DNA of 64,000 nt from Tachypleus tridentatus (Eukaryota; Arthropoda; Merostomata; Xiphosura; Limulidae), in contig NC_134829.1 in assembly GCF_004210375.1 (NCBI RefSeq), forward strand, positions 53,064,107-53,128,106, read 5' to 3'. The notes below the pieces were generated by a model. The model was given only the letters and a program-made list of their open reading frames with translations, searched no databases and was not told where the DNA came from. Positions 7,476 to 53,126 of this stretch are shown here, one piece after another (position 1 is the stretch's first letter; each line of letters opens with the position of its first letter). A program made the translations under genes and the position numbers.

Positions 7476-9211
7476 ATGGTTGCCCAAAAGGTAAATTAAA
7501 TCTATGTTATACATACTGTATCTCTGTTGTTTAACCTAAAACTTAGTAGTAAGTTAGAATAGTGTCTTAGGGAATATATAAATATTTGATCACTGTTTAA
7601 TTGCATCTTAGTTATGTTATGTAAATAAGTCAAGCATGATTATTGAAGATATAGGAGATTTAGTTTGAATACATGTAAAGTTATCATTGTTCCATTGAAT
7701 AGGAGATTTTGTTTGAATAATGTAAAGTTATCATTGTTCCATTCAATAGGAGATTTAGTTTGAATAATGTAAAGTTATCATTGTTCCATTCAATAGGAGA
7801 TTCAGTTTGAATAATGTAAAGTTATCATTGTTCCATTCGATAGGAGATTCAGTTTGAATAATGTAAAGTTATCATTGTTCCATTCAATAGGAGATTCAGT
7901 TTGAATAATGTAAAGTTATCATTGTTCCATTCGATAGGAGATTCAGTTTGAATAATGTAAAGTTATCATTGTTCCATTCAATAGGAGATTCAGTTTGAAT
8001 AATGTAAAGTTATCATTGTTCCATTCGATAGGAGATTCAGTTTGAATAATGTAAAGTTATCATTGTTCCATTCAATAGGAGATTTAGTTTGAATAATGTA
8101 AAGTTATCATTGTTCCATTCAATAGGAGATTCAGTTTGAATAATGTAAAGTTATCATTGTTCCATTCGATAGGAGAGTTAGTTTGAATAATGTAAAGTTA
8201 TCATTGTTCCATTCAATAGGAGATTCAGTTTGAATAATGTAAAGTTATCATTGTTCCATTCGATAGGAGAGTTAGTTTGAATAATGTAAAGTTATCATTG
8301 TTCCATTCAATAGGAGATTCAGTTTGAATAATGTAAAGTTATTATTGTTCCATTCAATAGGGGATTCAGTTTGAATACATGTAAAGTTATCATTGTTCCA
8401 TTCGATAGGAGAGTTAGTTTGAATAATGTAAAGTTATCATTGTTCCATTCAATAGGAGATTCAGTTTGAATAATGTAAAGTTATCATTGTTCCATTCAAT
8501 AGGAGATTCAGTTTGAATAATGTAAAGTTATCATTGTTCCATTCAACGTTAGTTTCGTACTTTTTTGGCAGGAATTCTTTTCACAGAGATATTGTGTATG
8601 TTAATGTATTATTTCTTATCGGTGTATCCTGGAATATCACTTAATACTCCGTATCTTGTCTTCAGATCTTCGCTCTATTTTCTCTCAGTCTTCTCATGTT
8701 GACAGTTTGGGCGGAAGAGAATAATCAGGCAGCAGAGACGGAAGATCTGAAAGCTGAAGCTACAGGTTATGGTGGATATGGTGGAGGTGGAATCGGATTG
8801 GGCGGATATGGAGGTGGTGGAATCGGTTTGGGCGGATATGGAGGTGGTGGAATCGGTTTGGGCGGATATGGTGGTGGTGGAATCGGTTTGGGCGGATATG
8901 GTGGAGGTTTTGGAGGAGGATATGGTGGAGGTTTTGGAGGCGGATATGGCGTTGGAACATTTCTTGCTATTCCAATTAGCGTCGCTCACGCTCGTGTAGT
9001 AGGAGTCGGTGGTTATGGTGGATTTGGCGGAGTTGGTGGAGCTGGTGGACTTGGTGGATTTGGTGGAGTTGGTGGCCTTGGTGGATTTGGCGGAGTTGGT
9101 GGACTTGGTGGATTTGGCGGAGTTGGTGGACTTGGTGGATTTGGCGGAGTTGGTGGACTTGGCGGAGTTAGAGGTTATGGTGGTAGGAAACATCATAAAG
9201 GATGGCATTAA
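7476..9211 (+). CDS. Secreted glycine-rich structural protein, gene A (two coding exons)
   Basis: Exon 1 (7476-7490) encodes M-V-A-Q-K and is followed by the donor gtaaat; exon 2 runs 8666-9211 after a ttcag acceptor. The phase-0 join gives about 186 residues. Residues 1-21 form a signal peptide ending V-W-A. Then comes an acidic segment with E-D-L-K-A-E-A-T-G-Y, Gly-Tyr/Gly-Ile-Gly-Leu repeats, a hydrophobic island F-L-A-I-P-I-S-V near residues 104-111, Gly-Phe-Gly-Gly-Val/Leu repeats, and a basic C-terminus K-H-H-K-G-W-H. The ATG was chosen because exon 2 alone would lack most of the signal peptide and because the same mini-exon layout occurs in the paralogues. Likely an exported cuticle-type or acanthoscurrin/ctenidin-like glycine-rich protein; the function is inferred from composition only. 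The C-terminus differs from the W-W-x-D type of B, C and D. Confidence 0.8.
7651..8545. repeat. 47-bp minisatellite in gene A intron 1
   Basis: About 19 copies of a 47-bp unit (core ataatgtaaagttatcattg) fill most of the 1175-bp first intron. Variants alternate between ccattcaatagg and ccattcgatagg, which suggests amplification of two- or three-unit blocks. Confidence 0.95.
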
Positions 9212-9478
9212 CCACACTGAAGTAGGGAGAGTTAGAGTGTTCTATTTCAAATTAAGACATTTTCGTTTAAAAAAATAATACTTACAGGTTATACATTCTT
9301 AACGTTCTGCAATAACTGATATACTTTGACACTTTTTGTTTAAATGTAAGATACAACATAAGTTTTAACCTCAGGTTTTCATTAGAAATATTTCAAGTAT
9401 GAATAGAAATACTTAAGATGTGTGGCTCTTGGAATCATCTATATAAGTATAACAAAAAAATGTGTTTTTGTTTTACAG

Positions 9479-9660
9479 ATGATATTTAGAAACAGATGAC
9501 GTATTCTGGTAAGAGTTATGGACAGTATGTGCACTGTCTAATTATTTCTCTTTACTTGACAAGATCGAGGCAGTGGAATCCGATTTGTTACATCTTATTT
9601 CAAACGCTCCATTTTTGTTTGCACTTAATGAATTCTAATAAACATTGGATTTGTTCATAG
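9479..9660 (+). other. Possible 3'UTR exon of gene A
   Basis: A polypyrimidine-rich acceptor (gtttttgttttacag) ends at 9478 and AATAAA lies at 9637-9642. By analogy with B, C and D this may be a spliced 3'UTR exon. A clear donor right after the stop codon is missing; cag-gttata at 9288 is a weak candidate, so the 3'UTR may be unspliced. Confidence 0.4.
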
Positions 9661-10493
9661 TTTATATTTATAGTTTATATTTCATACGAAAAACGAATTA
9701 AATAAATTGAATTTTGCTACTGGAAATAATGTTCATTATTACGACTGTCTATCTTTGAGTTCTGTTTTATAAACAGATAATCGTATAAGCAAATAACTCT
9801 AACAAAACTGACTAAATTAATTTGTGTTTCAGACCATTATCATCGTTCACTTCGAAATGATAGAAGACAGAAGGACCGGAAACAATATTCACTCACTGTT
9901 AAATCCAAACATAACTAAATACAACTTACACTGTTTTGTTGATTCCACCAGTTAATGGTGGGAAAACACGTAATATAAAACAATATATAAATTATAACCT
10001 TGTAGCAATTTTATATGTTGAAATAACAGAATTATTAGTAATAAAATGACCAGTGTATTACGAAATTATAAAATCAACAAAAGGTGTTAACCGAAACTAA
10101 AAATGCGCTTCAGTAGGTTAAAATATTTGTAAGATTGTAGTAACAAGGAAAGGAATATTCATTACACGTAGAATATGTCAAACAGCCGAGTATTTCTTAA
10201 ACCTAATAAATATGTTGAAATCCAGCAATAATATCCACCTTAAAAACAATAAAAATACGAATTTTGCAGGTGTCACTCAGACAGTAAAAAGCAACCAGTA
10301 TTTATTAACAAATAAGTATTTAGTTAAGTTCTTTAATATTAGAAAAAACAGCTCATTTTAACACTTTTGGATGTAAGCGTTAATTATACTGTTAGTCAAT
10401 GTTTATCTGTAAATACAGTGTTATATCACTCAACCGTAACAGAGATTTCGTTAGAGACATTGAAAGTAGGATCTTATCAATACAGTCGTGCAT
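9661..10493. other. Intergenic AT-rich DNA, no gene seen
   Basis: Nothing beyond short unconvincing frames. A second acceptor-like tttgtgtttcag at 9821-9832 lies downstream of gene A. Confidence 0.45.
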
Positions 10494-10893
10494 GACAGTA
10501 GTGGGTCAGTACTTTAAATCATGTCAACGTTATGTAAAACATGATTAATACTGTTAACATGACAGTAGTGAGTCAGCACTTTAAATCTTGTCAACTTTAT
10601 GTAAAACATGATTAATACTGTTAACATGACAGTAGTTGGTCAGCACTTTAAATCATGTCAACTCTATGTAAAACATGATTAATACTGTTAACATGACAGT
10701 AGTTGGTCAGCACTTTAAATCATGTCAACTCTATGTAAAACATGATTAATACTGTTAACATGAAAGTAGTGGGTCAGCACTTTAAATCATGTCAACTTTA
10801 TGTAAAACATGATTAATACTGTTAACATGACAGTAGTTGGTCAGCACTTTAAATCATGTCAACTTTATGTAAAACATGATTAATACTGTTAAC
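10494..10893. repeat. 67-bp tandem repeat, 6 copies
   Basis: The unit contains gtcagcactttaaatcatgt and aaaacatgattaatactgtt and repeats every 67 bp (for example 10501, 10568, 10635). Copies differ at few positions. Confidence 0.93.
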
Positions 10894-11404
10894 TATGTCA
10901 ATTACGTAGACAACTAGGTAATTCTGCTCCAATTATTTTATAAATTGATACTAGTTTTGTAATTTTTGTTAAGGAAGATCCAAATACATTGGTTAAATGA
11001 CATGAGAGAGGTGGTACACAAATATAAAAAACTAGGGTCTATTCTTCATCAGTAAGGCGAGTGTTCTGTACATTGGAATTTATGTTGTTCACCGACCTGT
11101 TCAACAGACACCACAAACAGTTTAATAAATAAGCTTTTCAAGTGGCTACACAGGAAGATAAAAGAAAACAAAACATTTATTTGTTATTATATGCAAAAAT
11201 TGAACGAGTAATCGTTGAACAATTATATTTAAAAACATAACCGTTTAGATACACAAGTCAAATCAGCTGAAATACCATTGGTGGTTAATTTTATGGGAAA
11301 CTAGGACATGCGTTTCTTTATTTATTACTAGGGCTCCCTTGAAGTTGTGAGAACGTAAATGTTTCTAATCGTCTCATTTCCTATCATTCATTTCAAATAA
11401 TTTA
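10894..11404. other. Intergenic DNA, no gene seen
   Basis: No coding, SINE or tandem signal was recognised between two minisatellites. Confidence 0.45.
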
Positions 11405-11830
11405 TAAGGAAATCATCTGATATTGAGTGTTTTTCATAGTTATCAGTTGATACTGAGTATTACTCATATGGTCAGTTGATACTGAGTGTTATTCATATTT
11501 ATCAGTTGATACTAAGTATTACTCATATGGTCAGTTGATACTGAGTGTTATTCATATTTATCAGTTGATACTGAGTATTGTTCATATTTATCAGTTGATA
11601 CTGAATGTTCTTTATATTTATCAGTTGATACTGAATGTTGTCCATATTTATCAGTTGATACTGAGTGTTGTTCATATTTATCAGTTGATACTGAATGTTC
11701 TTTATATTTATCAGTTGATACTGAATGTTGTCCATATTTATCAGTTGATACTGAATGTTGTCCATATTTATCAGTTGATACTGAATGTTGTTCATATTTA
11801 TCAGTTGATATTGAATGCTGTTTATATTTA
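11405..11830. repeat. 30-bp minisatellite
   Basis: About 14 copies of a 30-bp unit (catatttatcagttgatact plus a variable ga(a/g)tgtt(g/c)tt end). The left third is less regular, including catatggtcagttgatac variants. Open frames on both strands are a by-product of the 10-codon period. Confidence 0.93.
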
Positions 11831-13463
11831 TTGCCTTTATCGAAATGTTTTCCCGATTTAACAAATGTATTTAATCCTCTAATGACGCGTGATATATAAA
11901 TTAGATCACAAATCAGCTCTCCTGTGTAATCCTGAAAAACACTAATTAATTAATTACTTTTATCCGTAAAGAATAAAACTAGTTTTTATGGGATTCTTTG
12001 TTGTAATTTACATGGGCTATAGTTTTTGGAACTACAATCGTTAGTCTAATTTCAAAAAGGACTACTATTAATAAGAAGTCTTGCTAGGACCCACGTTGAT
12101 AAAAACATTGAATTGTGAGTATTTTATACATTCAGATTTCGTCTGACATATCTTAGTATTTCTGGTATTTTTATAAGGACAATGACATTTCTAAATCCCA
12201 TTTTTTTCTTTATACACTGTGCCTGGATCAGCAGTGAAGTACTTTAGGAACGACTTGTTTTTTATATACCGAGATCCGAAAAAAACAAACTTTTTAACGT
12301 TCACCCTAAATCTGTAGTTTATTTAAACCTTTTGTGAATCTCGTCTGAAAAGCCTAACAAAGCACCGTATTTTTTGAATTATCAGAACGTGGCTTGAGAA
12401 TGAGGTCAGACAAAGTAACCCGACTGGTGGCGCTGAAGTCTAATTCGTGACGACATCAAGGGTCGTCGGAAGTTTAACTGTAAGAGAGAGGAATGACATT
12501 TAGTGAGTTTCTCGGTTCTATAAATCAGTGAAGAGTGTATAAAAAATCATTACAATAATATATTAAACAGATAAATCTTCCACCATATTTATTAAACTTG
12601 ACAAGCACGTTCTAAACTGTTTGTTTTTATGAGCAGAATTATCAGTAACTTTTTATCTGACCTTTCCCGTACTATTTAACCTGCTAAAAAGAATTGAAGT
12701 TTTGCTTACGCGACACGGATGATATTTATTTTAATAATTACGAAATTTAGAATCAAAGGAAAGATCAGAATTGGGTAAAAATGGGGACAATCGTAATTGC
12801 AGATTTGATATTGGTCAGCAGAAGTAAGCTAATATATATCTATGTGACAAACACAGTACAATTTTGGTATTAATTTCTTGTAAAATAGTTGAATAAATAT
12901 GACATGATTCTTAACAAATACGATATTATACAGAATCGAAATAATTATTAGAACACAAAAGAAGTTCACATACAAGAGTCACAAACAACGATTATGGCAA
13001 CTGGATGGTACAACAGTCACAAGCAACGAGTGACTGTAACTAAATGGCTAGCTCCGTTAGCTGTTACTTAATTTTCAAGTGATAGACAAGAGAAGTTGCA
13101 CCATCCGCTTCAGCTCTTGGACTAGTTTTGTCCGGCACAATAATTAGAATTGATCGATACTTTTATAATGCATCAAATTCTCAATGGCATCTATTCGTGG
13201 GCTTATTTTTGAAGTCTATTGTGGTTGAATGTTTGTTCGAATGTACTCACTACAATTAATTGTGAACTTTCAACATCGAATCAGATTCAATCTTGTGTAT
13301 GTTTGCTCTCATTCATATAAAAGAAATGTATCATTGTATTTATGATACGATATGACAAGGCACTGTTGTAATTTTAAATGCTATAAATCTAGGAGTTGAT
13401 TGCTGTGACCACTTAAAGACAACAAAATAATATTCAACATATTAATAACAGAAATACGCAGAC
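11831..13463. other. Intergenic DNA, no gene seen
   Basis: A long unique-looking stretch with no recognisable exon, SINE or array. A duplicated cacaagcaacga-type phrase near 12980-13030 is too short to classify. Confidence 0.45.
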
Positions 13464-14280
13464 GTGAATAGTTATACTGTAAAATGTTGTTGTATCCTTA
13501 GTTATACTGTAAAATGTTGTTGTATCCTTAGTTATACTGTAAAATGTTGTTGTATCCTTAGTTATACTGTAAAATGTTGTTGTATCCTTAGTTATACTGT
13601 AAAATGTTGTTGTATCCTTAGTTATACTGTAAAGTGTTGTTGTATCTTTAGTTATACTGTAAAATGTTGTTGTATCCTTAGTTATACTGTAACATGTTTT
13701 TATATCCTTAGTTATACTGTAACATGTTGTTATATCTTTAGTTATACTGTAACATGTTGTTATATCTTTAGTTATACTGTAAAATGTTGTTGTATCCTTA
13801 GTTATACTGTAAAGTGTTGTTGTATCCTTAGTTATACTGTAAAATGTTGTTGTATCCTTAGTTATACTGTAACATGTTTTTATATCCTTAGTTATACTGT
13901 AACATGTTGTTATATCTTTAGTTATACTGTAACATGTTGTTATATCTTTAGTTATACTGTAAAATGTTGTTGTATCCTTAGTTATACTGTAAAATGTTGT
14001 TGTATCCTTAGTTATACTGTAAAATGTTGTTGTATCCTTAGTTATACTGTAAAATGTTGTTATATCTTTAGTTATACTGTAACATGTTGCTATATCTTTA
14101 GTTATACTGTAACATGTTGTTATATCTTTAGTTATACTGTAACATGTTGTTATATCCTTAGTTATACTGTAACATGTTGTTATATCTTTAGTTATACTGT
14201 AACATGTTGTCATATCCTTAGTTATACTGTAACATGTTGTTATATCTTTAGTTGTGTCCTAACATGTTGTTATATTCTTA
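13464..14280. repeat. 30-bp minisatellite with 180-bp higher-order period
   Basis: About 27 copies of a 30-bp unit (core ttagttatactgtaaaatgt). The block at 13681-13860 is repeated almost exactly at 13861-14040: the rare aacatgtttttatatcc variant recurs 180 bp apart, i.e. six units. The unit length keeps frames open on both strands (259 and 273 codons), but there is no start context, splice site or non-repetitive sequence to support a protein. Confidence 0.95.
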
Positions 14281-14413
14281 CGTGACTTTCTTTAAAAACT
14301 TGGGTCTATTTTATTTTCTACAGTTATTGTTTGTGGTACGATGGAATCTAACAATGTTATTCAAAACGTTTGGGTGGGCTGGTTCTATTGTTGTAAAACA
14401 AAATCATACACAA

Positions 14414-14502
14414 TGTCCGTGATTTGCCAACCATCAATGGTATTGAAACCTAAACTGTAGTGTCGTAAGACTGCAGACTTACCACTGAGCCACTTGGGGA
14501 GA
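14414..14502 (-). mobile_element. Degenerate tRNA-derived SINE head (family 2)
   Basis: On the minus strand, ggctcagtggtaagtctgca followed by a degenerate box B (ttcaataccattgatgg) fits the head of the shorter SINE family. The tail is not clear. Confidence 0.5.
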
Positions 14503-14529
14503 AATTCAGAAAGTTCTTGGGATGTAGAA

Positions 14530-14549
14530 TTATATATATATATATATAT
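14530..14549. repeat. (TA)n microsatellite
   Basis: An uninterrupted TA dinucleotide run. Similar short runs occur near 4571, 29860, 45720 and 51928. Confidence 0.85.
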
Positions 14550-14934
14550 CCACCCTTAACTGAATTTTTAAACCTTCGTGTCTTCATAATATCACGGAAG
14601 AGAGTTTTCAGGATACAGAGTTTCATATCTTTATCCTAAAGTGGTATTTTGAACCTATATCATTTCGTAATATCATGGAAGAAAGTCGTTAACAAACAAT
14701 AACGATGAGTCAACGCTCCTCGAAGAACGTAGTAAAACGTATTGGATTCTCTGTCAGCTCATTTCTCGCTTAAAGAAAAGGTAAAACCAGTTAGACTTGA
14801 AGACGTTGATACAAAATCAGAAACAATCTAGTTTTAGTATATTTCTGGTAAACTTTCAATGAATGTAGTGCATAGTATAAGTATAGACGTTGGTATTAAT
14901 TTCCCAGAAAAATACCGAATTACATAATTTAAAC

Positions 14935-15031
14935 TATATAAACATGGAGTGCTTTCCTCATTCGCTCTGCATTCCTTAACTACGAGATAGTAAAAACGGT
15001 AAAAGGAGGTAACTATGAACTCAAAGTGAGT
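14935..15031 (+). promoter_or_regulatory. Possible orphan promoter and first exon of a glycine-rich family gene
   Basis: TATATAAA at 14935 is followed by tcctcattcgctctg, closely matching the presumed initiator of gene A (tcctcattcacttctg at 7435). About 80 bp after TATA comes ATG-AAC-TCA-AAG (15015-15026) directly followed by tgagtaaag. This echoes the family pattern of a 3-5 codon exon 1 ending in Lys followed by a donor. The donor lacks one G compared with AAG-GTGAGT, or shifts to AAA-GTGAGT and changes phase. No signal-peptide or glycine-rich exon was found downstream before 18 kb, so this may be a stranded exon of a lost paralogue. Confidence 0.35.
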
Positions 15032-15617
15032 AAAGATGTTTCAAAAGTCATTCTAATTTAAGTAGGATTTTTCTTTCTTTGGATGCACGAAAGCCGTGAC
15101 TGTCATCAAGAAAAATAATCGTGTTTCTGAAAACCCTGGACGAGATTGGATCTAATATGCAGCCCTGAAAATCGAGAATAAGTGTTTTAACTTTAATAAA
15201 CAGCGGGTCTGTATTTGCCCTTAATTAAATTTTTTTTTTTTGCGTTTCGGACGCAATAAAATGAGTCAAAAACGCAAGCGTTACCTATTCGTAAATCTGA
15301 CAAACGTGACTTCTGATTTTAACAAAGAAAATAGACGTAACTGACGCTTGTACCGTTAATATGTTTCGAAATTACTGTATTAAAGTGGAGTAAGTTATGA
15401 TCTATTTGTTGGAATCTATAAGTGGATCACAGAGTGATAATTGTTGTTTAGATAATTAACGAAAGCGGACATATTCCTGAAATAAACAAACTAAGTCTCA
15501 GTTTATTGTTAGATCACAAAAATATTTATACTTCGGGGACAGATGACATTAAAATATCTAATAAAAAGTTTAATCGAAAAGTTTGTAAGAATTCCTTCGA
15601 ATCTTTATGAATACTGT

Positions 15618-15737
15618 TGATAAAGTTTAGTCAGCCACGTCAACTGATGACAAAGTTAAGTCAGCCACGTCAACTGATGATAAAGTTTAGTTAGCCACGT
15701 CAACTGATGATAAAGTTAAGTCAGCCACGTCAACTGA
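15618..15737. repeat. 30-bp tandem repeat, 4 copies
   Basis: The word agccacgtcaactgatga recurs every 30 bp (15631, 15661 and onward), with minor variants. Confidence 0.9.
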
Positions 15738-16084
15738 AAACCCAGCAGAAGGTTTCGTAGCCGCGGTTTCCCAGACCAAAAGTAGATTCAAGAAACTTAA
15801 AAATATTATTCTGTTGCTACTGATAGAAACAAGTTCTGAATTCATTTTCAAATGGTACAAAATTTTTAACTGTGTTATTCTATTCTGGAAGATCCTTTAA
15901 TAGGCTGTACCAGAACAAGACAGATACCATCTTGCAATTACAATGTAGAAAGTTTTCAATTTGTCACCTCATGAGGGCAGTGATATGAGCAATAGATAAA
16001 ACACTTAGTATTTACTTACAATGATGTAAATGGTATAAATATTTCTAAATATTATTTTTGAACTTTAATGGAGATGTTATTACT

Positions 16085-16262
16085 AAAATGTAACTTATAA
16101 TGTAGTGAAAGAGATGCAAGTACAGACCAAAATATAACTTATAATGTAGTGAAAGAGATGCAAGTACAAAGTAAAATATGTCTTATGATGTAGTGAATGA
16201 GATACAAGTACAAACTAAAACATGACTTAAAATGTAATGCAAGGGATACAGTTACAAACTAG
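16085..16262. repeat. ~44-bp tandem repeat, 4 diverged copies
   Basis: acttataatgtagtgaaaga recurs at 16093 and 16137, followed by two more diverged copies ending in acaaactaaaac/acaaactagaac. Confidence 0.8.
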
Positions 16263-20258: not shown

Positions 20259-20282
20259 TCTTGTCTACAAAATTTTAAATGC

Positions 20283-26585: not shown

Positions 26586-26854
26586 TGTTTCGAATTTCGC
26601 ACAAAGCTACTCGAGGGCTATCTGTGCTAGCTGTCCCTAATTTAGCAGTGTAAGACTAGAGGGAAGGCAGCTAGTCATCACCACCCTCCGCCAACTCTTG
26701 GGCTACTCTTTTTACCAACGAATAGTGGTATTGACTGTCATATTATAACGCCCCAACGTCTGAAAGGGCGAGCATGTTTGGTGCGACCGGGATTCGAACC
26801 CGCAACCCTTAGATTACGAGTCGAACGCCTTAACGCGCTTGGCCATGCCGGGCC
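26586..26854 (-). mobile_element. tRNA-derived SINE (family 1) inserted in the Penelope-like element, with TSD
   Basis: A full-length reverse-oriented copy ending gcttggccatgccgggcc. The flanks aattctgtttgtt (26573-26585 and 26855-26867) form a perfect 13-bp target-site duplication. The insertion separates the endonuclease remnant from the 3' end of the Penelope-like element, so it is younger than that element. Confidence 0.93.
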
Positions 26855-30155: not shown

Positions 30156-30247
30156 CACGTGATCATTTCGCACGCACTGTACGCCGATAGGTTGAAAGAA
30201 GAAAGGATTTAATTCTTTGGACCACCTCCCAATTTAGGGTATAAATA
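30156..30247 (+). promoter_or_regulatory. Core promoter of glycine-rich gene B: CACGTG box, TTTGGACCAC and TATA
   Basis: CACGTG at 30156-30161 is followed by atcatttcgcacgcac. TTTGGACCAC lies at 30216-30225 and TATAAATA at 30240-30247, 73 bp before the ATG. The E-box-to-TATA distance is 84 bp, against 83 in gene C and 82 in D and D'. The box plus its following ~16 bp and the TTTGGACCAC word both reappear in gene C's promoter. Confidence 0.6.
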
Positions 30248-30312: not shown

Positions 30313-31318
30313 ATGAGAAAGGTATGGTAGGAGTTATGAGGACAATCGTTGTATTGTATGTTATAATGCTTTATTAGCTGCTTTGTCCGGAGAACAATCC
30401 GAAACAATATTCTGAACTAACTCTCACACGGTGAACAGAAGACGTATGTTAACTCAGTACGACTTAACGATTGAAATATCATAAATTCTGAGAGAAACAC
30501 ACTGGAATGTTTCATTTATCAAAAATTGAACCAAGATAATTTTGGACGATCTGACAATTTGACAAGTTTTATAACTTCGTAATATTTTACTAATTATCCA
30601 TAATTTGTTTACGTATATTTGTCTCTTGGTAAAATTAATGTAATGTAAGACTGAAAGAAGGCAGAGAGTGCTCGAAAAATCGAGTTTACTTTGTGTGTAA
30701 AAAGCGCTTACTATAATCCATGTCTTGGCAAATTTTTCATATGTTAAGAAGTTCACGCTTTTTAATACGCTTCAAATATTGTTGTATAATTATCTTTTTG
30801 TTTTAAATATGTTGTTTAAAATGCATAATTTCTGTTTACTTCTAATAGTTCTGTATTTTTACTGAAAGCTATTTATAGTCGTCTGTTTCACTGTGGTGGT
30901 CCTGGTGGCACGTGCAGAAGATAAAGCTGATGGCAAGACTGAAGATCTTCAAGCTGAAGCAACTGGTTACGGTGGAGGAGGGTACGGCGGAGGAGGGTAC
31001 GGTGGTGGAGGCTATGGTGGTGGAGGCTATGGTGGGGGAGGCTATGGTGGGGGAATAGGAGGAGGGATTGGAGGAATAGGAGGAGGGATTGGAGGAATAG
31101 GAGGAGGGATTGGGGGAATAGGAGGAGGGATTGGTGGATACAGTGGTGTAGCCCATATTCTTGCTGTTCCAGTAAGACTGGTTGTAGGAGGCAGCAGCTA
31201 TGGAGGCGGCAGCTATGGAGGAGGCGGCTACGGAGGAGGCGGCTTCGGAGGAGGCGGCTATGGGATCGGACTTGGTGGACGTTTAGGAGGCGGCATAGGC
31301 AAATGGTGGTGGGATTAA
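30313..31318 (+). CDS. Secreted glycine-rich structural protein, gene B (two coding exons)
   Basis: Exon 1 (30313-30321) encodes M-R-K before the donor gtatgg. Exon 2 is 30869-31318 after acceptor ctgaaag. The product is about 152 residues. The signal peptide covers residues 1-19, ending L-V-A-R-A. Then follow an acidic segment with T-E-D-L-Q-A-E-A-T-G-Y, Gly-Gly-Gly-Gly-Tyr repeats, Gly-Ile-Gly repeats, a hydrophobic island H-I-L-A-V-P-V-R-L-V-V near residues 104-114, a Gly-Ser-Tyr/Gly-Phe part, and the C-terminus K-W-W-W-D. The stop codon is followed by AG and a donor gtcagt, so the 3'UTR is probably spliced. Likely a cuticle-type extracellular protein; an antimicrobial acanthoscurrin-like role is an alternative. 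Exon 2 has long synonymous GGA/GGT runs prone to copy-number change. Confidence 0.8.
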
Positions 31319-38561: not shown

Positions 38562-38659
38562 TTTGGACCACGTGCTCATTTTCGTGCACCAGGGTCGCCG
38601 AGTTCAAAGAGGAAATGATTGAAATTCTCCTCATTAGCGACTTTCTCTGGCTATAAATA
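38562..38659 (+). promoter_or_regulatory. Core promoter of glycine-rich gene C: TTTGGACCACGTG and TATA
   Basis: TTTGGACCAC (38562-38571) overlaps CACGTG (38569-38574), followed by ctcattttcgtgcac. TATAAATA lies at 38652-38659, 83 bp downstream of the E-box and 68 bp upstream of the ATG. Gene B's promoter carries both words, separately. Confidence 0.6.
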
Positions 38660-38719: not shown

Positions 38720-40379
38720 ATGGTGGAAAAGGTAGGCGGTTTATTAATATGCTTATTATAGCATTAATTATGTGCCGGCCCTCCGCTAGTACAGCAATAA
38801 GTCTACGGATTTACAACGCTAAAATGAGGGGTTCGATTGCCTGCGGATGTTTTAGCAGGTAGCCCGATGTGGTTTTGCTACAAAAACACAAACACGTACT
38901 AATATGTCTGCTAAACACACTTGTAAAACGCTATGCGTGACAAAATTCTCTATTTCTGACCAAGTACTCGCTTGATGAAGAGAAGCCTGTATATTTTATT
39001 ATTGTTCAGGTTTGTGGATCACAAGCGAAACTAGGATATCTAGTTTATTACCAAAAAAAAAAAGGCAACTCTAAAAATACTGAGAAACAGCACTGGAGTT
39101 TCATGTAGCACTGGAGTTTTATGTAGCACTGGAGTTTTGTGTAGCACTAGAGTTTTATATAGCACTGGAGTTTTATGTAGCACTAGAGTTTTGTGTAGCA
39201 CTAGAGTTTTATGTAGCACTGGAGTTTCATGTAACACTAGAGTTTCATGTAGCACTGGAGTTTCATGTAGCACTGGAGTTTTATGTAGCACTGGAGGTTT
39301 TTGTAGCACTAGAGTTTTATATAGCACTGGAGTTTTATGTAGCACTATAGTTTTGTGTAGCACTAGAGTTTTATGTAGCACTGGAGTTTCATGTAGCACT
39401 AGAGTTTCCTGTAGCACTAGAGTTTTATGTACCACTGGAGTTTTATGTAGCACTGGAGTTTTGTGTAGCACTAAAGTTTTATGCAGCACTGGAGTTTTAT
39501 GTAGGCTTAACTGATCTTATTTCATTTGTTATCACTTCATGAAAACCTTAATTGCGATATTAAAAGAAACCTCAAGAGAAAGAACTTAACTACAAGTTTA
39601 TCTTTGAAATTTCTAAATAAAATGGATATAGTTTTTTTCAAAACTAGACTATCTAAACATTTAGTTACGTTTTGCAAATGTATTACTATTTTATCATGGA
39701 ACATTGTCAGAACTGAGGTTAGAGTTCAGGGCACTGTTTTATTTATTATGTATATATTTGAAATAGTTCATGTAATAGAGAATCATTTTAATATGAAGTT
39801 ATATTTCTTCTTTCTCTATTCTTGTGAAAAACAAACTCTCTGTTATCATTTAATTATTTTGCTGTTTTTCTTAGAATACGAGATCTAATAATTATTGTAT
39901 ATTTTTGCTTAAAGCTCTTCACAATCGTCTGTTTCATTCTACTTGTCCTCACCGTGCGAGCAGAGGACGAAACTAAGGTGGAAGTTAAAGATCTCCAGGC
40001 TGAGGCAACTGGTTATAGTGGAGGCGGTATTGGAAAAGGGTTTGGGGGAGGTGGATTCGGTGGTTTAGGTGGATTTGGTGGCTTTGGTGGACTCGGTGGT
40101 TTTGGTGGTGGCGGATTTGGTAAGGGTGGCGGTGGGGCCCAAGTCATTGCTATTCCAATAAGTCTTGCTGGCATCACTTTAAGAGGAGGATTTGGTGGTG
40201 GAGGGTTTGGAGGCCGCGGCTTTGGTGTTGGAGGCTTTGGAAGAGGTGGTTATGGTGGTGGAGGCTTTATAGGTACAGGCGGATTTGGAGGAGGTCTAGG
40301 TGGTGGAGGCTTTATAGGTACAGGCGGATTTGGAGGAGGTCTAGGTGGTAGAAGAGGATACGGATGGTGGCGAGACTAA
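38720..40379 (+). CDS. Secreted glycine-rich structural protein, gene C (two coding exons)
   Basis: Exon 1 (38720-38731) encodes M-V-E-K before the donor gtaggc. Exon 2 is 39915-40379 after acceptor gcttaaag, giving about 158 residues. The signal peptide covers residues 1-20 (ending T-V-R-A). Then follow V-K-D-L-Q-A-E-A-T-G-Y, Gly-Phe/Gly-Leu repeats, the hydrophobic island Q-V-I-A-I-P-I-S-L-A-G near residues 80-90, Gly-Phe repeats with a duplicated F-I-G-T-G-G-F-G-G-G-L block, and the C-terminus G-Y-G-W-W-R-D. The mini-exon and phase-0 intron match genes A, B, D and D'. Intron 1 holds a SINE and an 18-bp minisatellite. The stop is followed by AG and a donor gtttgt. Function inferred as for B; arginines are more frequent after the central island than before it. 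Confidence 0.8.
38774..38895 (+). mobile_element. tRNA-derived SINE (family 2), best-preserved copy, in gene C intron
   Basis: Begins gccggccctccgctagtaca, then gtctacggatttacaacgct, a good box B (gggttcgattgcc), tagcccgatgtggttttgct and an A/C-rich tail. It lies in the sense orientation in intron 1. Confidence 0.75.
39090..39505. repeat. 18-bp minisatellite in gene C intron 1
   Basis: About 23 copies of an 18-bp unit (tagcactggagttttatg). Variants include actaga for actgga and ttttgt or tttcat for tttatg. Six-codon periodicity opens frames on both strands; these are not genes. Confidence 0.94.
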
Positions 40380-45195: not shown

Positions 45196-45467
45196 TCCGG
45201 CATGGTCAGTTAATTAGCGTGATCGAATCGTAATCTCAAAGTCGCGAGTTTGAATTCCCGTCCACCAGACATGTTTGCCCTTTCAGCTATAGTGGGCCTT
45301 ATAACATGACGGTAAGTCCCTCTATACGTTGGTAAAATAGTAGCCCGAAATTTAAAGTGAGTGGTAAAGACCAATTGTCATCCCTCTGGTCTTACACCAC
45401 TAAATTAGGAACAAGTAGCGAAGATAGCACTCGTGTAGTTTTGCGCGAAATTTAAAAACAAACAAAC
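45196..45467 (+). mobile_element. tRNA-derived SINE (family 1), unit 1 copy
   Basis: gtccggcatggtcagttaat ... gcgagtttgaattcccgtcc ... gcgcgaaatttaaaaacaaa, with a (aaac)n-like tail. The orthologous copy is at 51281. Confidence 0.88.
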
Positions 45468-45933
45468 CATTCCGTTGAATTTCTTTACATGTAGAAGACT
45501 AAGTACCTGTTATGGGAATATTATTTACTTTTGAGACACGTTCTTTGTTAAGTTTGCTACAATAACAATAGTATTTACTTAGAATGTCAGCAGAACGAAG
45601 AAGAAATCGTGAGCACTACATACAATTTTTGTTTTTCTGGAAAGATACGTTTGTCTGGAAACTGAATTAATTTTCTTGTAGTAATACTAGTTTTTACCTA
45701 CTCATGCGGAACTTATAAATATATATATATATTTGTTTTTGTATAAGTGTAATAAAGCTAGTTTATAAATATATTTGTTAGAATGTTCATTGGCCTATTA
45801 ATACACCCGTTTTGTTTTGTTTTTAGCTCCTGCCAAAAGTGTGACGTTTTAGCGATAAAAGGTTTCGAAAACTACTTGGAAGGTGTGGCCTTCAGCCACA
45901 ACAAGAAAATAGTAAAAAATCTCTTCACGATGA

Positions 45934-46023
45934 CACGTGGTGTTAATAAACCAATTGAAGAGCTCTATTTGAGAAAATATTATGACAACTTTACGCATCG
46001 TTTATTGACTCTGACTATAAATA
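45934..46023 (+). promoter_or_regulatory. Core promoter of glycine-rich gene D: CACGTG and TATA
   Basis: CACGTG at 45934-45939 lies 82 bp upstream of TATAAATA (46016-46023), which is 68 bp before the ATG. The spacing equals that of genes B and C. The sequence between the boxes is nearly identical in D' but not alignable with B or C. Confidence 0.6.
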
Positions 46024-46083
46024 TGACAATGAGCACAACTAGAAGCCACATCACTCACAAGTTTCGTTTAGAAACCACCAAAG

Positions 46084-46999
46084 ATGTTTCAGAAAAAGGT
46101 AAGACATTAATGATATTTGATATAAAACAATATAAATGAAAAGTTACAGAAACAAAGTAGAAATATTTAAAATAAACTAAAGTTATATGTTTAGGTGAAA
46201 CTATGTCTGGCTGTTTCTCTTCATACTTTGCATTTTTAGTTTAATTTACAAATCCAGTTCAAAGTATTAATCTTCAAGTTAACCAAATGGTACCACAAGA
46301 CTTAATCAACAATACAATTTGGTTTTACAATATGGTTTAATTTATTAATCTTCAAGTTAACCAAATGGTACCACAAGACTTAATCAACAATACAATTTGA
46401 TTTTACAATATGGTTTAATTTATTTTTTATCAAATGGACCACATGGTAACATAAGACTTGATCAACATCACGTTTTTTGTAGTTTTTTTCCTTCCGCTGT
46501 GTTTGTAAGAAGAGCTATAACGTCTCTTTACTTTTATCTATCCTTAAAGTTGTTTGTTATCATCTGGTTCACCGTTCTGGTTCTGGCTATACGAGCAGAG
46601 GAGAAAACTATTGATGAGAAAGAAGACTTACAGGCTGAGGCAACCGGGTACGGTGGCGGATATGGCGGAGGTTACGGTGGCGGATATGGCGGAGGTTACG
46701 GCGGAGGCTATGGTGGAGGTTACGGGGGAGGTATCGGCGGAATTGGTGGCATAGGTGGAATTGGTGGCATAGGTGGAATTGGAGGTTTTGGAGGAGGCGC
46801 TAGGCTTATTTCTATTCCAATAGGTCTTACTGGTGTTGTACTTGGAGGAGGCTATGGCGGTGGACTTGGTGGTTTTGGCGGTGGACTTGGTGGTTATGGT
46901 GGTGGACTTGGTGGCTATGGTGGTGGAGGTGGTGGCTATGGTGGTCGAGGTGGTCGAGGTGGAAGATATGGGGGACGATATGGCTGGTGGTGGGATTAA
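46084..46999 (+). CDS. Secreted glycine-rich structural protein, gene D (two coding exons)
   Basis: Exon 1 (46084-46098) encodes M-F-Q-K-K before a gtaag donor. Exon 2 is 46550-46999 after acceptor ccttaaag. The product is about 154 residues. The signal peptide covers residues 1-21 (ending A-I-R-A). Then follow K-E-D-L-Q-A-E-A-T-G-Y, seven G-G-Y-type repeats, Gly-Ile-Gly repeats, the island A-R-L-I-S-I-P-I-G-L-T-G near 89-100, Gly-Leu/Gly-Tyr repeats, an Arg-Gly-Gly stretch and C-terminus Y-G-W-W-W-D. An open frame upstream in the same frame as exon 2 is intron sequence; the mini-exon start is preferred because of TATA spacing, the consensus donor and the paralogues. The stop is followed by AG and gtcagt, so the 3'UTR is spliced. 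Paralogue D' lies 6.2 kb downstream in the second unit. Confidence 0.82.
46266..46421. repeat. 78-bp tandem duplication in gene D intron 1
   Basis: attaatcttcaagttaacca starts at 46266 and 46344. Gene D' has this segment once, which accounts exactly for the intron length difference (451 versus 373 bp). Confidence 0.93.
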
Positions 47000-47286
47000 A
47001 GGTCAGTATATGATCTATGTTTCAATATAAAACAACATCAAGAACAATTTGTTATCAAGTCATAATAACAGCCATTCATGTTAAACTTTAGTTACGTTTC
47101 ACCTGAGATAAGGGTTTGTTTCCATTCCAGTTATTTACATTAACCTTTATCAATTATGCAATGAAAATATGTTTTGTTAATATCTTTGTTTGTACACATG
47201 AAATAAATTATCTTTATTAAACATCAGTGGGAATGATGATCATTGTTGGCTCTACTTTCTATCTCTCATTAACATTTATTTTGCAG

Positions 47287-47450
47287 GACAAGTACCATCA
47301 TATCCACTTCAATCATTTGAAATCTTACCGTATCAGTGAGGTGTCCCTGATGTCGAAAAACTCCTGTTAGAAATGATAAAATTTTGTCTCCTGTAGTATA
47401 TGAAAAAACTGTAAAATTTCATCAAATAAAAACTGTTTAATTTTGATTAA
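47287..47450 (+). other. Probable 3'UTR exon of gene D
   Basis: The intron runs from 47002 (gtcagt) to acceptor catttattttgcag ending at 47286. AATAAA lies at 47425-47430. The exon is conserved in D' at 53400. Confidence 0.6.
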
Positions 47451-48125
47451 ATAACCAATTAGTTTTCTTTTAATAACGTTGCTTCTAAACGTTATTATAA
47501 AAACAAGAAATTATTGTACACCATTTCGCACTACTCTGTTAAAAATAAAGCACGTGATTACACGTTCTGGAAAATGTGTCAGATGGTTCGAGATTGGACA
47601 TTTGTTTGTACTGAAATACTGGTGTTCCGTTGATGAACCAATCAGGTGCAGTCTTACTTCACGAATTTATAAGTTTCAGAAGCTTTGATGATAAACTTAT
47701 AAATACTATTCCATGAAATAATATTCTTTAACTACTGTTGGTATAATTTGGTTTAAAATACTAAACCAGAGATTGTTTAAATATGTTCACAATGTTATTA
47801 ATATAATGCGAAATAAATTTCAATGCTATATCTCTGCTGTATAAGTATAGTTTAGAGGAAAACAGTGTAACTATTAATGGCTGTGGCAAAGAGAACATCT
47901 TAAATAACCAAGGGTTTTTAAAATGTTAAAATAACAAACCATACTTCAGTTAGGTAGTAATGTTTATATCATCAAGCACAAAACCATTAAAATAGTTCAA
48001 CAGTAATTATCCTGAAACATTACGATGAACAAGCATACAATTGACAGTTAACCCAAATATAGGATCGCAGTGTGTATGCAATATGATTGTTTAGTGGGCT
48101 GTTTACAAATGTCTTTTGTCATTTC
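47451..48125. other. 3' flank of gene D, no gene seen
   Basis: The sequence is highly similar to 53565-54243. A 69-codon open frame at 47479 is conserved in both units, but recent duplication alone explains that. The junction to unit 2 lies near 48125. Confidence 0.45.
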
Positions 48126-48889
48126 GTTTATTTGCATTGAGAAGATACCGTGTAAATTTCACATCTGCGTTGAGTGGATCAGGTGTAAATTTAAAATCTA
48201 TATTGTAAAGATAATGAAATATATGCAGTCAGTAAATTTCAAGCTGCTACGAAACAAAACTGTTTACTCAGGTTACAACATGTAAATAATAACAAAGGGC
48301 ATTTTATTTCTGTACTTTATTACACGTCTTCAAGTATAATTCCTACTAATAACTTTAACCACAAAACAATACAGAAATGGCTGCATATCGTTACACTGGT
48401 TCAAAATTTCTTGATCTATTGTACGTAAAAGTTTTCATTTTTGTCTTTGCCACAATGAGTGCACAGAGGTTATGGTTTCATTCCTTTGTGTGTGTTTGTC
48501 GGAGGTTACATTTTTATTTCTCTGTTTATCACCAAGATTTCTCCAAAACGGCTGAATGAATTTGGACGAAAATTGTTATACATATGGACATTGATATATG
48601 TCACAAGTTATTAGGTTTTGGAGATTCAAAGTGACAGAAAAGTTACGAAAATTCAAAAAATCTCCATGTGTTAACGTTGATTTTTCACACAGTATTTGCT
48701 ATACATTGGCGGTCGAAATCATTCGAATGCTGATAAAACATTATTTCTATTGTCCTGTAAAAACGGCGCGTGTTAATCGAAAATGACGGATATTCGGACA
48801 CGTTTCTATGTTTTTGTTTTTGAGGGCCACAACTGATCAATACTGCGTGGCAGAAGTATGCATTCCACTGATATGTTTTTCTTCTGTGA

Positions 48890-49062
48890 AGGCGTTATAA
48901 AGTGACAATCAATCCTATTTGTCACTGTTAAAAGAGTAGCTTAAGAGTTGGCCGTGGGCAGTAATGACTAGCTGCCCTTCCCCTTGTCTCACACTGCGAA
49001 ATTGGATTCGGATAACGCAGATAAACCTCATATAGGTTTGCGCGAAATTCGAACACAACGAA
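48890..49062 (+). mobile_element. Headless SINE (family 1), unit 2 copy
   Basis: Orthologous to the element at 43690: gaaggcgttataaagtgaca ... gcgcgaaattcgaacacaac, with the same missing head. Confidence 0.8.
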
Positions 49063-49556
49063 CGACATTGGTTTTCAATGTCAAATAAAATCCATCTATT
49101 GGTCGAATTTTGCGTCCGATTTATAGCATTAGGCTTAGAAAGAAATTTATTCCTAAAGGAAAATTCAATAAAGAACAAAATATATAAAACAATAAATTTT
49201 ATTTGACCGCCACATTGATCAGTAATCATAAAATTGTCGAAAAGTACAAAGTAATAATTAACTTTGTGTGAGAGAAAAATGGTTTAAACTTACCTTTTAA
49301 GGCTTGTTTGTATAAATATATTTGTTTCTTTATTTCGAACATTCGCGAAATACAGATAAAGGTTGATCCCACCAAACGGCATTATATTATAACAGTCTGT
49401 CAAGAGAGATGGCAGCTTATCAACGGTACACGCCGCCAACAATGGAACCTCTCTAATGGAATAATGAGATTTCACTGTCACTCTTATAATGCACTGGCAG
49501 TTTTCCAGGGCGGAGAAGAATCTGTAGTAACGGATCACAAAATATGGAATCTGGGA

Positions 49557-49685
49557 TTTACAGTTTGCCGCGATAATCATTAGGCCATGTCCGACACAAG
49601 AAAATAAACGCTAAAATCAGGGATTCCATTCTACTTGGTGGACTTGACACATAGCCCGATGTGGTTTTGCTACAAGAAAACACAC
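49557..49685 (+). mobile_element. Degenerate tRNA-derived SINE (family 2) in unit-2-specific segment
   Basis: cgctaaaatcagggattcca, then cttggtggacttgacacata and gcccgatgtggttttgctac, then a CA-rich tail. It is absent from unit 1. Confidence 0.6.
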
Positions 49686-49788
49686 ACAAAAGAAAATGAA
49701 AAAAGTGAAAAAGGATATTGTAACTTCGATCACCAGAGGGAGCTTGAAAAGAAAACGATTACGACATTTAACATTTCTGGTACTCATA

Positions 49789-49925
49789 ATGTCTTCCAGT
49801 GGCACAACGTTATGTTTGTGTAGTTGAAACGCTAAAATCCAGGTTTCAATACCCGTGGAGTGCAGAGAACACTTTGTCCACTGTGTAGTTTTCTGTTTAA
49901 TTTCAAATAAATAAGCAAACGAATT
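49789..49925 (+). mobile_element. SINE of the second tRNA-derived family in unit-2-specific segment
   Basis: cttccagtggcacaacgtta, gaaacgctaaaatccaggtt, tcaatacccgtggagtgcag and a tail aatttcaaataaataagcaaa. It is absent from unit 1. Confidence 0.65.
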
Positions 49926-50039
49926 GCTCACACTTATAAAACCTTTCAAAATTCCTGTTTTTGTACACACAGGTTGGATGTACCAGCATGTACAGGTTTT
50001 GGAGTATTAATGCAATTAAGATTAATTATCTATTTTTTG

Positions 50040-50305
50040 TGTGTTTTTTTTGTAATTTCGCGCAAAGCTACACGAGGGCTCTCTGCGCTAGTCGTCCTTA
50101 ATTTAACAGTGTAAAACTACAGTGAAGTCAGCTAGTCATCACCACCCACCACTAATTCTTGGGTTATTCTTTTACCATCGAATAGTGGGATTGAGCGTTA
50201 CATTATAATTCCCACACGACTGAAAGCACGAGCATATTTAACGCGACGAAAATTCGAACTCGCGATTACAAGTGAAGTGACCTAACCACCTGGTGATATC
50301 GGCCA
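50040..50305 (-). mobile_element. tRNA-derived SINE (family 1), full length, in unit-2-specific segment
   Basis: The reverse-oriented element runs from tttgtaatttcgcgcaaagc to cacctggtgatatcggcc. The head is diverged (acgcgacgaaaattcgaact). It is absent from unit 1 together with about 600 bp of neighbouring DNA. Confidence 0.85.
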
Positions 50306-51280
50306 TAAAGAGACATACAAAGGAAATATTACACACACTATAATTACACAACGTTACAGTGTACGACTAGAGAGACAAAAGATTGTGTAGTGGGCAAAGC
50401 GTTGTGTGCAACATACGTAAAATATGTAGAAAAAGGTAAGCACAGAGCTACACAATGGTGTGCTATGCTCACCGTGGATATCGAAACTCGATTGTTAAAA
50501 TTGTAAGACATTTTTTTAGTTTTACAGTTGAGTTACTAGAACCAAAACAAACAGATATGACCTTATCTACCACTTGTTTGTTTACTTTATTGAAGGACAA
50601 AACTTTACAGTAGGCCATCCTTACTCTGTTCACCGTGGGAAATTGAATTTCGAATTTTAGCTTTGTAGGCCTGTTAATTTATAGTTAACCCACGAGGGTA
50701 AGTAAATAAAATTACACATTAATGAAGAAATCTTAGGTTATCTTTGTAATTTGGCGTAATATCGAACTGTGGCTATTAAATGAACAGTCGTAAACACGAA
50801 ATAACAAATATGTACTTATGTTACTTGTATAGATACTAAAGAAGCTACACGTTTTACTTCTACAGATATTCCAGAAGCTACATGTTTTACTTCTACAAAT
50901 ATTCCAGAAGCTACACGTTTTACTTATGTAGATATTACAGAACCTACACGTTGCTAAAATGTCTATATTTCTAAATCGACTACCAATATATGTATATATA
51001 TTTTTACCATCGTGCAGAAGAGAAATAAATATTTTAAAAAAATTTTTTGATTGGTCAATAAAGCTGTACTCTATGGACACTCGTTTTAAAAGGTGACTGA
51101 AAGAGGTTTTAAACTTGTAACAGCAGTTATTGTTCACCAGAGACTTCCAACCAGAGTGAAGAGTCATTATCGGTCACCAATTCATTGATAAAGAATGTAA
51201 GACAGAAAGAAGAAAATTATACTTTCTTTTGGTAACCGCAAGAAGTTCAATAAACACCATGTCAGTTTCCATTCAGGTGA
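50306..51280. other. Non-coding duplicated DNA, no gene seen
   Basis: Corresponds to 44265-45195 of unit 1. The agaagctacatgttttactt tandem repeat here has one more copy than in unit 1. A diverged minus-strand SINE head is near 50630-50680. Confidence 0.45.
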
Positions 51281-51550
51281 GGTCCGGCATGGTTAGTTAA
51301 TTAGCGTGATCGAATCGTAATCTCAAAGTCGCGAGTTCGAATTCCCGTCCACCAAACATGCTTGCCCTATCAGCTATAGTGAGCCTTATAATGTGACGGT
51401 AAATCCCACTATACGTTGGTAAAGTAGTAGCCTGAAATTTTAAAGTGAGTGGTAAAGACTAGTTGCCATCCCTCTGGTCTTACACCACTAAATTAGGAAC
51501 AAGTAGCGAAGATAGCACTCGTGTAGTTTTGCGCGAAATTTAAAAACGAA
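51281..51550 (+). mobile_element. tRNA-derived SINE (family 1), unit 2 copy
   Basis: gtccggcatggttagttaat ... gcgagttcgaattcccgtcc ... gcgcgaaatttaaaaacgaa. Orthologous to the copy at 45196; box B is better preserved here. Confidence 0.88.
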
Positions 51551-52144
51551 CAAACCATTCCGTAGAATTTATTTAGACGTAAAAAACTAATTACCTTATT
51601 CCTTCGAAGTATATGCCCTTCGATAGTAGTGTAAAAAAGACACTTCGTAATCAGGAATCAGAATAGAAGTTTCTCATACTCCTAGAAATGAATGTTGTAG
51701 TTAATTATTAATAAGACCTGTTATGAGAATATTATTTACTTTTGAGACACGTTCTTTGTTAAGTTTGCTACAATAACAATAGTATTTACTTAGAATGTCA
51801 GCAGAACGAAGAAGAAATCGTGAGCACTACATACAATTTTTGTTTTTCTGGAAAGATACGTTTGTCTGGAAACTGAATTAATTTTCTTGTAGTAATACTA
51901 GTTTTACCTACTCATGCGGAACTTATAAATATATATATATATATTTGTTTTGTATAAGTGTAATAAAGCTAGTTTATAAATATATTTGTTAGAATGTTCA
52001 TTGGCCTATTAATACACCCGTTTTGTTTTGTTTTTAGCTCCTGCCAAAAGTGTGACGTTTTAGCGATAAAAGGTTTCTAAAACTACTTGGAAGGTGTGGC
52101 CTTCAGCCACAACAAGAAAATAGTAAAAAATCTCTTCACGATGA

Positions 52145-52234
52145 CACGTGGTGTTAATAAACCAATTGAAGAGCTCTATTTGAGAAAATATTATGACAAC
52201 TTTACGCATCGTTTATTGACTCTGACTATAAATA
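52145..52234 (+). promoter_or_regulatory. Core promoter of glycine-rich gene D': CACGTG and TATA
   Basis: CACGTG at 52145-52150 and TATAAATA at 52227-52234 keep the 82-bp spacing, with the ATG 68 bp after TATA. Nothing in the visible promoter suggests loss of activity. Confidence 0.6.
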
Positions 52235-52294
52235 TGACAATGAGCACAACTAGAAGCCACATCACTCACAAGTTTCGTTTAGAAACCACCAAAG

Positions 52295-53126
52295 ATGTTT
52301 CAGAAAAAGGTAAGACATTAATGATATTTGATATAAAACAATATAAATGAAAAGTTACAGAAACAAAGTAGAAATATTTAAAATAAACTAAAGTTATATG
52401 TTTAGGTGAAACTATGTCTGGCTGTTTCTCTTCATACTTTGCATTTTTAGTTTAATTTACAAATCCAGTTCAAAGTATTAATCTTCAAGTTAACCAAATG
52501 GTACCACAAGACTTAATCAACAATACAATTTGATTTTACAATATGGTTTAATTTATTTTTTATCAAATGGACCACATGGTAACATAAGACTTGATCAACA
52601 TCACGTTTTTTGTAGTTTTTTTCCTTCCGCTGTGTTTGTAAGAAGAGCTATAACGTCTCTTTACTTTTATCTATCCTTAAAGTTGTTTGTTATCATCTGG
52701 TTCACCGTTCTGGTTCTGGCTATACGAGCAGAGGAGAAAACTATTGATGAGAAAGAAGACTTACAGGCTGAGGCAACCGGGTACGGTGGCGGATATGGCG
52801 GAGGTTACGGCGGAGGCTATGGCGGAGGTTACGGGGGAGGTATCGGCGGAATTGGTGGCATTGGTGGAATTGGAGGTTTTGGAGGAGGCGCTAGGCTTAT
52901 TTCTATTCCAATAGGTCTTACTGGTGTTGTACTTGGAGGAGGCTATGGCGGTGGACTTGGTGGTTTCGGCGGTGGACTTGGTGGTTTTGGCGGTGGACTT
53001 GGTGGTTATGGTGGTGGACTTGGTGGCTATGGTGGTGGAGGTGGTGGCTATGGTGGTAGAGGTGGTCGAGGTGGAAGATATGGGGGGACGATATGGCTGG
53101 TGGTGGGATTAAAGGTCAGTATATGA
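52295..53126 (+). CDS. Secreted glycine-rich structural protein, gene D' with altered C-terminus
   Basis: Exon 1 (52295-52309) again encodes M-F-Q-K-K; exon 2 starts at 52683. The signal peptide, K-E-D-L-Q-A-E-A-T-G-Y segment and A-R-L-I-S-I-P-I-G-L-T-G island are identical to gene D. The first glycine block is shorter (five instead of seven G-G-Y-type repeats) and the second has one extra G-L-G-G-F-G-G unit. Near 53085 a G run is one base longer than in D, so the normal Y-G-W-W-W-D ending is replaced by T-I-W-L-V-V-G-L-K. Without 3' splicing the frame stops at 53126 (about 152 residues). If the conserved intron (53115-53399) is removed, it continues for 27 residues into the former 3'UTR exon and stops at 53483 (about 176 residues). 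A homopolymer sequencing error is an alternative explanation. Confidence 0.72.

Follow-up and report, generated by a model that had tools for sequence, protein, structure and literature searches.

Glycine-rich secreted proteins of the horseshoe crab Tachypleus tridentatus: a dispersed gene family with a probable place in the cuticle

Five mini-exon genes and their shared plan

Five plus-strand genes for glycine-rich secreted proteins, G1 to G5, lie in a 64,000-base stretch of the genome of the horseshoe crab Tachypleus tridentatus (the window; C5:53064107-53128106 in an assembly of 2.17 Gb and 205 contigs). Each opens with a very small first exon that ends in Lys at a phase-0 intron with a GT donor, and resumes after an AG in exon 2, so that the spliced N-termini read MVAQK-IFALF (G1), MRK-LFIVV (G2), MVEK-LFTIV (G3) and MFQKK-LFVII (G4 and G5). 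All five products then present, in the same order, a signal-peptide-like hydrophobic stretch running to Ala (judged by eye), an acidic segment, the sequence DL(K/Q)AEATGY and two glycine blocks with a hydrophobic island between them. A first-pass annotation, made from the letters of the window, had described these mini-exons, a signal peptide completed by exon 2, and a D-L-x-A-E-A-T-G-Y segment followed by two glycine blocks around an island; each was found in all five genes where it had been placed.

The features are listed below. First exons were placed from the sequence and the gene model, second exons from the sequence with donor scoring (from sequence comparison in G5), the conserved segments from the alignment and a codon-pattern search, the islands from the sequence, and the TATA boxes by an octamer search. 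The corresponding family locus labels are L039 (G1), L009 (G2), L011 (G3), L023 (G4) and L020 (G5).

7410..7417, plus: G1 TATA box, TATAAATA, 66 nt 5' of the ATG
7476..7490, plus: G1 exon 1, MVAQK
8666..9211, plus: G1 exon 2, C-terminus HKGWH; poor post-stop donor match (5/9)
8744..8770, plus: G1 DLKAEATGY segment
8960..8983, plus: G1 island, FLAIPISV
30240..30247, plus: G2 TATA box
30313..30321, plus: G2 exon 1, MRK
30869..31318, plus: G2 exon 2, C-terminus KWWWD; AAG/GTCAGT donor-like site immediately past the stop (window 31319)
30944..30970, plus: G2 DLQAEATGY segment
31157..31180, plus: G2 island, ILAVPVRL
38652..38659, plus: G3 TATA box
38720..38731, plus: G3 exon 1, MVEK
39915..40379, plus: G3 exon 2, C-terminus GWWRD; AAG/GTTTGT donor-like site immediately past the stop (window 40380)
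39990..40016, plus: G3 DLQAEATGY segment
40143..40166, plus: G3 island, VIAIPISL
46016..46023, plus: G4 TATA box
46084..46098, plus: G4 exon 1, MFQKK
46550..46999, plus: G4 exon 2, C-terminus GWWWD; AAG/GTCAGT donor-like site immediately past the stop (window 47000)
46625..46651, plus: G4 DLQAEATGY segment
46805..46828, plus: G4 island, LISIPIGL
52227..52234, plus: G5 TATA box
52295..52309, plus: G5 exon 1, MFQKK
52683..53126, plus: G5 exon 2, tandem duplicate of G4, frame-shifted by one base close to its end and lacking WWWD
52758..52784, plus: G5 DLQAEATGY segment
52896..52919, plus: G5 island, LISIPIGL

A degenerate-codon pattern for AEATGY matches five times in the window, once in each gene, and never in 100 dinucleotide shuffles, and 13 of the 37 columns of the N-terminal alignment are invariant. 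The octamer TATAAATA stands 66-73 nt upstream of the ATG in every gene; its plus-strand occurrences across the whole window total 21. An exact search of the genome with one codon spelling of the motif returned no matches and is uninformative.

G5 departs from the plan at its end. It duplicates G4 in tandem, 6.2 kb downstream, and a one-base shift near the end of its exon 2 removes the WWWD terminus; the chain ends in LKVSI, and the stop at 53126 is not the family stop. The copy at L021, some 577 kb away, has the identical altered end, which argues against a random base-call error in G5.

A dispersed family with a conserved architecture

We used six N-terminal peptides as queries in a six-frame search of the T. 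tridentatus genome and found 74 distinct places at E<=10, of which 48 reach E<=0.1 (75 rows, with two entries for one place merged and the first-met E-value used for each place). Counts for so large a family are lower bounds, and the weak places that were not retrieved may include chance matches. The places fall on C5 (44), C13 (21), C2 (4), C9 (2) and, with one each, C7, C8 and C10; a 1.1-Mb stretch of C5 (52.87-53.96 Mb) holds 33, of which 28 are on the plus strand. The five genes proposed in the first-pass annotation are thus present as placed, but the family is far larger and one of the five is a frame-shifted copy; likewise its description of the family as local fits the 33 places in this stretch and not the rest, elsewhere on C5 and on other contigs.

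Fifty distinct loci, the five window genes included, were compared as sequence, 24 of the 74 places standing outside this sample at that stage (repeat retrievals were left out: L042, L047-L049, L051, L052, L059-L062, L068 and L070-L081). The motif is present in 44 of them in a loose form and in 33 in a strict form. A fixed rule for the start of the gene (TATAAA, 34-90 nt, ATG, at most five codons, AAG, CAG or AGG, then GTA or GTG) finds a mini-exon with a TATA box in 25 of the 50, a set that contains many close copies, compared with 6 of 1000 dinucleotide-block shuffles and none of 50 reverse strands. Some of the other 25 may have introns longer than the 1.5 kb of sequence covered, and in some loci the rule may pick chance sites, such as the MK found 95-98 nt from exon 2 in L053, L055 and L064. 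Nine further stretches were retrieved later, and six have a glycine-rich frame; L088, L090 and L091 have none over the length cut. L092, on the minus strand of C8 (134935800-134936900), is perhaps a giant relative: its glycine-rich open frame, about 355 residues long and truncated by the end of the stretch, combines a DLTAQATGY head with several hydrophobic segments of the VTLVG type.

Among 28 pairs compared at the start of exon 2 (its first 30-odd codons), 14 have saturated synonymous sites; in the other 14 the ratio of nonsynonymous to synonymous substitution (dN/dS) is 0.05-0.47. These codon comparisons show amino-acid conservation despite saturated synonymous change in the N-terminal region.

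The relatives give a fuller plan than the window genes: mini-exon, signal peptide, an acidic head ending in DLxAEATGYGG, a glycine block, an LLAIPIxL island, another glycine block and often a final WW(W)D. Ends of the form WWWD, WWRD or WWD are shared by G2, G3 and G4 with distant classes; the C-terminus of G1 is HKGWH, and further members end in KWW, GYGHH, YYKRW or KGGSW. In the members on C13, C2 and C9, exon 2 is short and mostly ends in (V/I/L)x(I)Q before a GT codon (e.g. L046, L054, L056, L034, L067), and comparison of paralogues reveals a downstream exon. Among 12 such downstream exons, nine start with (A/G)(I/V)PV, nine end in WWD and one more in WWND, and most hold a further island (e.g. 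LLAVPLQL) between glycine blocks. By its sequence, the island of the window genes seems to correspond to the one that an intron splits in these members.

A second splice signal appears at the end of the reading frame. A donor-like 9-mer (at least 7/9 to MAG/GTRAGT) lies no more than about 10 nt past the stop codon in 21 of the 28 members scored, compared with 12 of 752 downstream control windows; at 6/9 or better the counts are 25 of 28 and 64 of 752, with G1 (5/9) an exception. The 28 are G1-G4 and 24 relatives, which as paralogues are not independent; the frame-shifted G5, the near-identical L010, L012, L024, L034 and L041, and others were left out. This pattern suggests that a conserved intron begins in the 3' untranslated region, directly after the stop codon. 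The corresponding scores in three Rebers-Riddiford (RR) cuticle genes are 6, 5 and 5 of 9, so that, on a very small sample, the post-stop donor is apparently no general feature of cuticle genes.

Chain properties were scored for 25 proteins, with the cleavage site set by a simple rule and the three-exon L067 and L034 dropped because the end of exon 2 was missed. Glycine makes up 46-59% of the mature chain in 22 of them (29, 30 and 43% in the other three), and 24 have no Cys. The head is net negative in 24 and the remainder net positive in 24, and an LLAIPIxL-type island, a pattern chosen after inspection of the sequences, is present in all 25. The mature chains of the window genes are of 11.7-14.5 kDa, with 50-54% glycine, no Cys and net charges of -2, -1, 0, 0 and +3; their heads carry -4 to -5 and the remainders +2 to +7. 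AlphaFold2 gives the exon-2 product of G4 a mean predicted local distance difference test score (pLDDT) of 47, with one helix, at residues 2-31, spanning signal peptide and head; because of this score no fold search was made. Such a low-confidence prediction suits a disordered, material-forming protein. A Pfam scan of the five exon-2 proteins found no domain over cut-off and nothing at all in four; the fifth, G5, matches GRP (PF07172) at 19.6 bits against a curated cut-off of 30. A profile search of the PDB with the N-terminal alignment returned no matches at E<=1.

All five window genes have counterparts about 577 kb further on (C5 ~53.648-53.707 Mb), 95.9-98.7% identical over the best aligned piece. 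This second cluster, which continues with two more frame-broken copies of the G4 type (L025 and L015, frame-shifted or truncated), could be a recent duplication or unmerged haplotype sequence. The G1 counterpart has an inverted partner, 99.55% identical, with the mirror centre at about C5:53.6156 Mb. Two pairs of family loci are mirrored in this way, at C5 53582907 (minus) and 53648286 (plus) and at 53593841 (minus) and 53637340 (plus), each pair 99.55% identical; they are either the arms of a large inverted repeat or an artefact of the assembly.

Repeats are prominent in the window itself. Minisatellites take up 896 of the 1175 bases of the G1 intron (7651-8546) and 416 of the 1183 bases of the G3 intron (39089-39504), and a 73-bp satellite of about 95 copies runs from 57038 to the window end at 64000. 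A tRNA-Thr-like match on the minus strand (26779-26854; Rfam score 29.2, cut-off 29) is possibly a tRNA-derived repeat.

The chelicerate setting assumed in the first-pass annotation is correct, the host being a horseshoe crab. Pfam Coagulin has 19 matches over cut-off in this genome and none in 14 control genomes, and one coagulogen exon is identical at 48 of 48 residues to PDB 1aoc_A ('COAGULOGEN'), an entry that we take to be from T. tridentatus. Besides the coagulogen gene, further coagulin-like exons lie on C7 (19.2-20.5 Mb and 29.07 Mb) and C11 (9.02 Mb and 42.9 Mb).

Cuticle, other matrices and defence

We propose that this is a horseshoe-crab family of secreted glycine-rich structural proteins, which on the present sequence comparisons are probably built into the cuticle. 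The first-pass annotation had left the choice between cuticle and defence; its secreted glycine-rich family stands, and cuticle is favoured over defence because the mini-exon and TATA box are arranged as in cuticle genes, and because the window chains have neither the cationic charge nor the amidated C-terminus described for acanthoscurrin, ctenidin and serrulin. The papers cited here by PMC number are drawn on in excerpt. In Anopheles, an intron interrupts the signal-peptide region in 86% of those RR genes that have introns; their first exons measure 3-36 nt (mode 12), and TATA and initiator (Inr) elements occur in 93% (PMC2259329). One RR cuticle gene of T. tridentatus (L093) has the same arrangement, with a TATA box, a mini-exon MLK that closes on a GT donor, and a following exon that completes the signal peptide, although this mini-exon was found by eye, its TATA-ATG distance of 97 nt lying outside the rule. 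As far as those excerpts go, the family shares with the CPR (Rebers-Riddiford) genes the TATA box, the very short first exon and the intron in the signal-peptide region, which is a shared anatomy and not membership; unlike CPR proteins, the window proteins are glycine-rich throughout and have no chitin_bind_4 domain.

The closest known kind is, by analogy and from the excerpts cited, the glycine-rich cuticle proteins of the silkworm. Silkworm CPG proteins carry GGXG and GGY repeats and are abundant in moulting epidermis (PMC12426002, PMC2542385). The window proteins have the GXGX or GGXG repeats, set in a chain rich in glycine, by which the class is defined (PMC12426002), and they resemble insect CPG proteins (e.g. 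silkworm CPG1, one of 29 such genes there) in being secreted, glycine-rich and multicopy, with GGXG and GGY repeats. By description only, they differ in DLxAEATGYGG, the LLAIPIxL island and the C-terminal WWD, which those excerpts do not mention for CPG. Horseshoe crabs themselves offer a second comparison. Cuticle proteins of horseshoe crabs are cross-linked by transglutaminase, according to the part of PMC2956697 available, and the horseshoe crab set that has caraxin among its members (Iijima 2005, Matsuda 2007) may already contain some of this family. No description of the family was found in the literature searched by motif strings, titles and the opening lines of abstracts; Iijima 2005 may hold an earlier one, and we make no claim that the family is unpublished.

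Several observations weigh against a cuticular assignment. Pfam finds neither Chitin_bind_4 (PF00379) nor any other cuticle domain in the five exon-2 proteins. RR matches number at least 150 across the genome, and none of the 150 that were scored among 299 candidates lies within C5:52.8-56.4 Mb. A second RR gene (L094) has no mini-exon by the rule in 1.2 kb upstream, and a third (L095) has too little upstream sequence to judge. Finally, the third position of the motif is Q, K, R, E, T or A among paralogues, and because this place varies a fixed transglutaminase Gln is not indicated; such a Gln as the fixed point of the motif was therefore rejected.

A different matrix, such as the egg envelope, the gut lining, or a gland cement or adhesive, is possible as the destination of these structural glycine-rich proteins, though we regard it as unlikely. 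The sequence points to no single tissue, and similar compositions occur in tick cement and in silk, as excerpted from PMC11772090; the same excerpts give tick cement and cuticle-like proteins a signal peptide and glycine-rich repeats, some with GGY, a likeness to the window proteins that is one of description only. Set against this is the cuticle-type mini-exon with TATA box seen also in L093. The argument is weak, since genes of other kinds can have short first exons too.

We consider it distinctly improbable that the family encodes haemocyte antimicrobial peptides of the acanthoscurrin, ctenidin and serrulin kind with the acidic segment as a propeptide. Like these peptides, the family is chelicerate, glycine-rich and secreted, as well as tandemly amplified, and glycine-rich antimicrobial precursors consist of a signal peptide, a pro-peptide and a glycine-rich region (PMC11772090, in part). 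Of the 25 proteins scored, two relatives rise above +3 and are strongly cationic: L050 (+8) and the frame-shifted L018 (+11). The known peptides, however, are cationic, C-terminally amidated and of 3.6-10.2 kDa, with Lys as the amidated residue in acanthoscurrin and serrulin; by comparison with that account, as excerpted, the window chains are larger and nearly neutral (net charge only -2 to +3) and have no amidation end (PMC6784228). Amidation needs a following Gly in the precursor, and HKGWH, KWWWD, GWWRD, GWWWD and the shifted LKVSI of G5 are not amidatable. The cleaved propeptide that the first-pass annotation had suggested for the acidic segment finds no support either: the heads of G1-G4, and the residues just beyond them, contain no dibasic site, and a furin-type propeptide was rejected for the window genes on that ground.

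That these are low-complexity repeats read as coding is very unlikely: tandem repeat outside the exons of the five genes makes up 21,385 of the 64,000 bases, a third of the window, and G5, L025 and L015 are frame-shifted or truncated, but TATA box, mini-exon, splice sites, motif, island and stop context are conserved across distant paralogues with saturated synonymous sites.

A model for assembly and its implications

The best reading of the sequences is that the family comprises disordered, self-assembling structural proteins of the cuticle. We suggest that the proteins would leave epidermal cells by way of the signal peptide. The acidic head, for which we infer a role in assembly, would keep the chain soluble and, with the positive remainder, cause chains to attract one another, while the LLAIPIxL island would act as a short hydrophobic sticking segment and the Gly-Tyr blocks and the C-terminal Trp-Trp-Asp would provide flexible linkers and aromatic contacts. 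Afterwards, Tyr, Lys and Gln could be cross-linked by quinone tanning or transglutaminase. The many tandem copies may serve high output and may supply tissue- or moult-specific variants.

A bolder and rather doubtful extension of this structural cuticle model is that a lineage-expanded superfamily shares one modular code, made up of a DLxAEATGYGG acidic head, one or two LLAIPIxL segments within Gly-Tyr linkers and a Trp-Trp-Asp tail, encoded with a start mini-exon and a conserved post-stop intron, in which head and tail would control extracellular condensation. If this were true, the family would be a natural Cys-free two-part switch for making tough material.

To our knowledge, the composition of chelicerate cuticle is poorly known beyond the RR proteins. 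A family dozens strong with fixed, non-repetitive landmarks offers its head, island, WWD tail and splice junctions as search handles, and these can help to recognise proteins of this sort in proteomes and genomes in which similarity searches fail on the glycine repeats. The family may also provide a simple Cys-free model for protein assembly.

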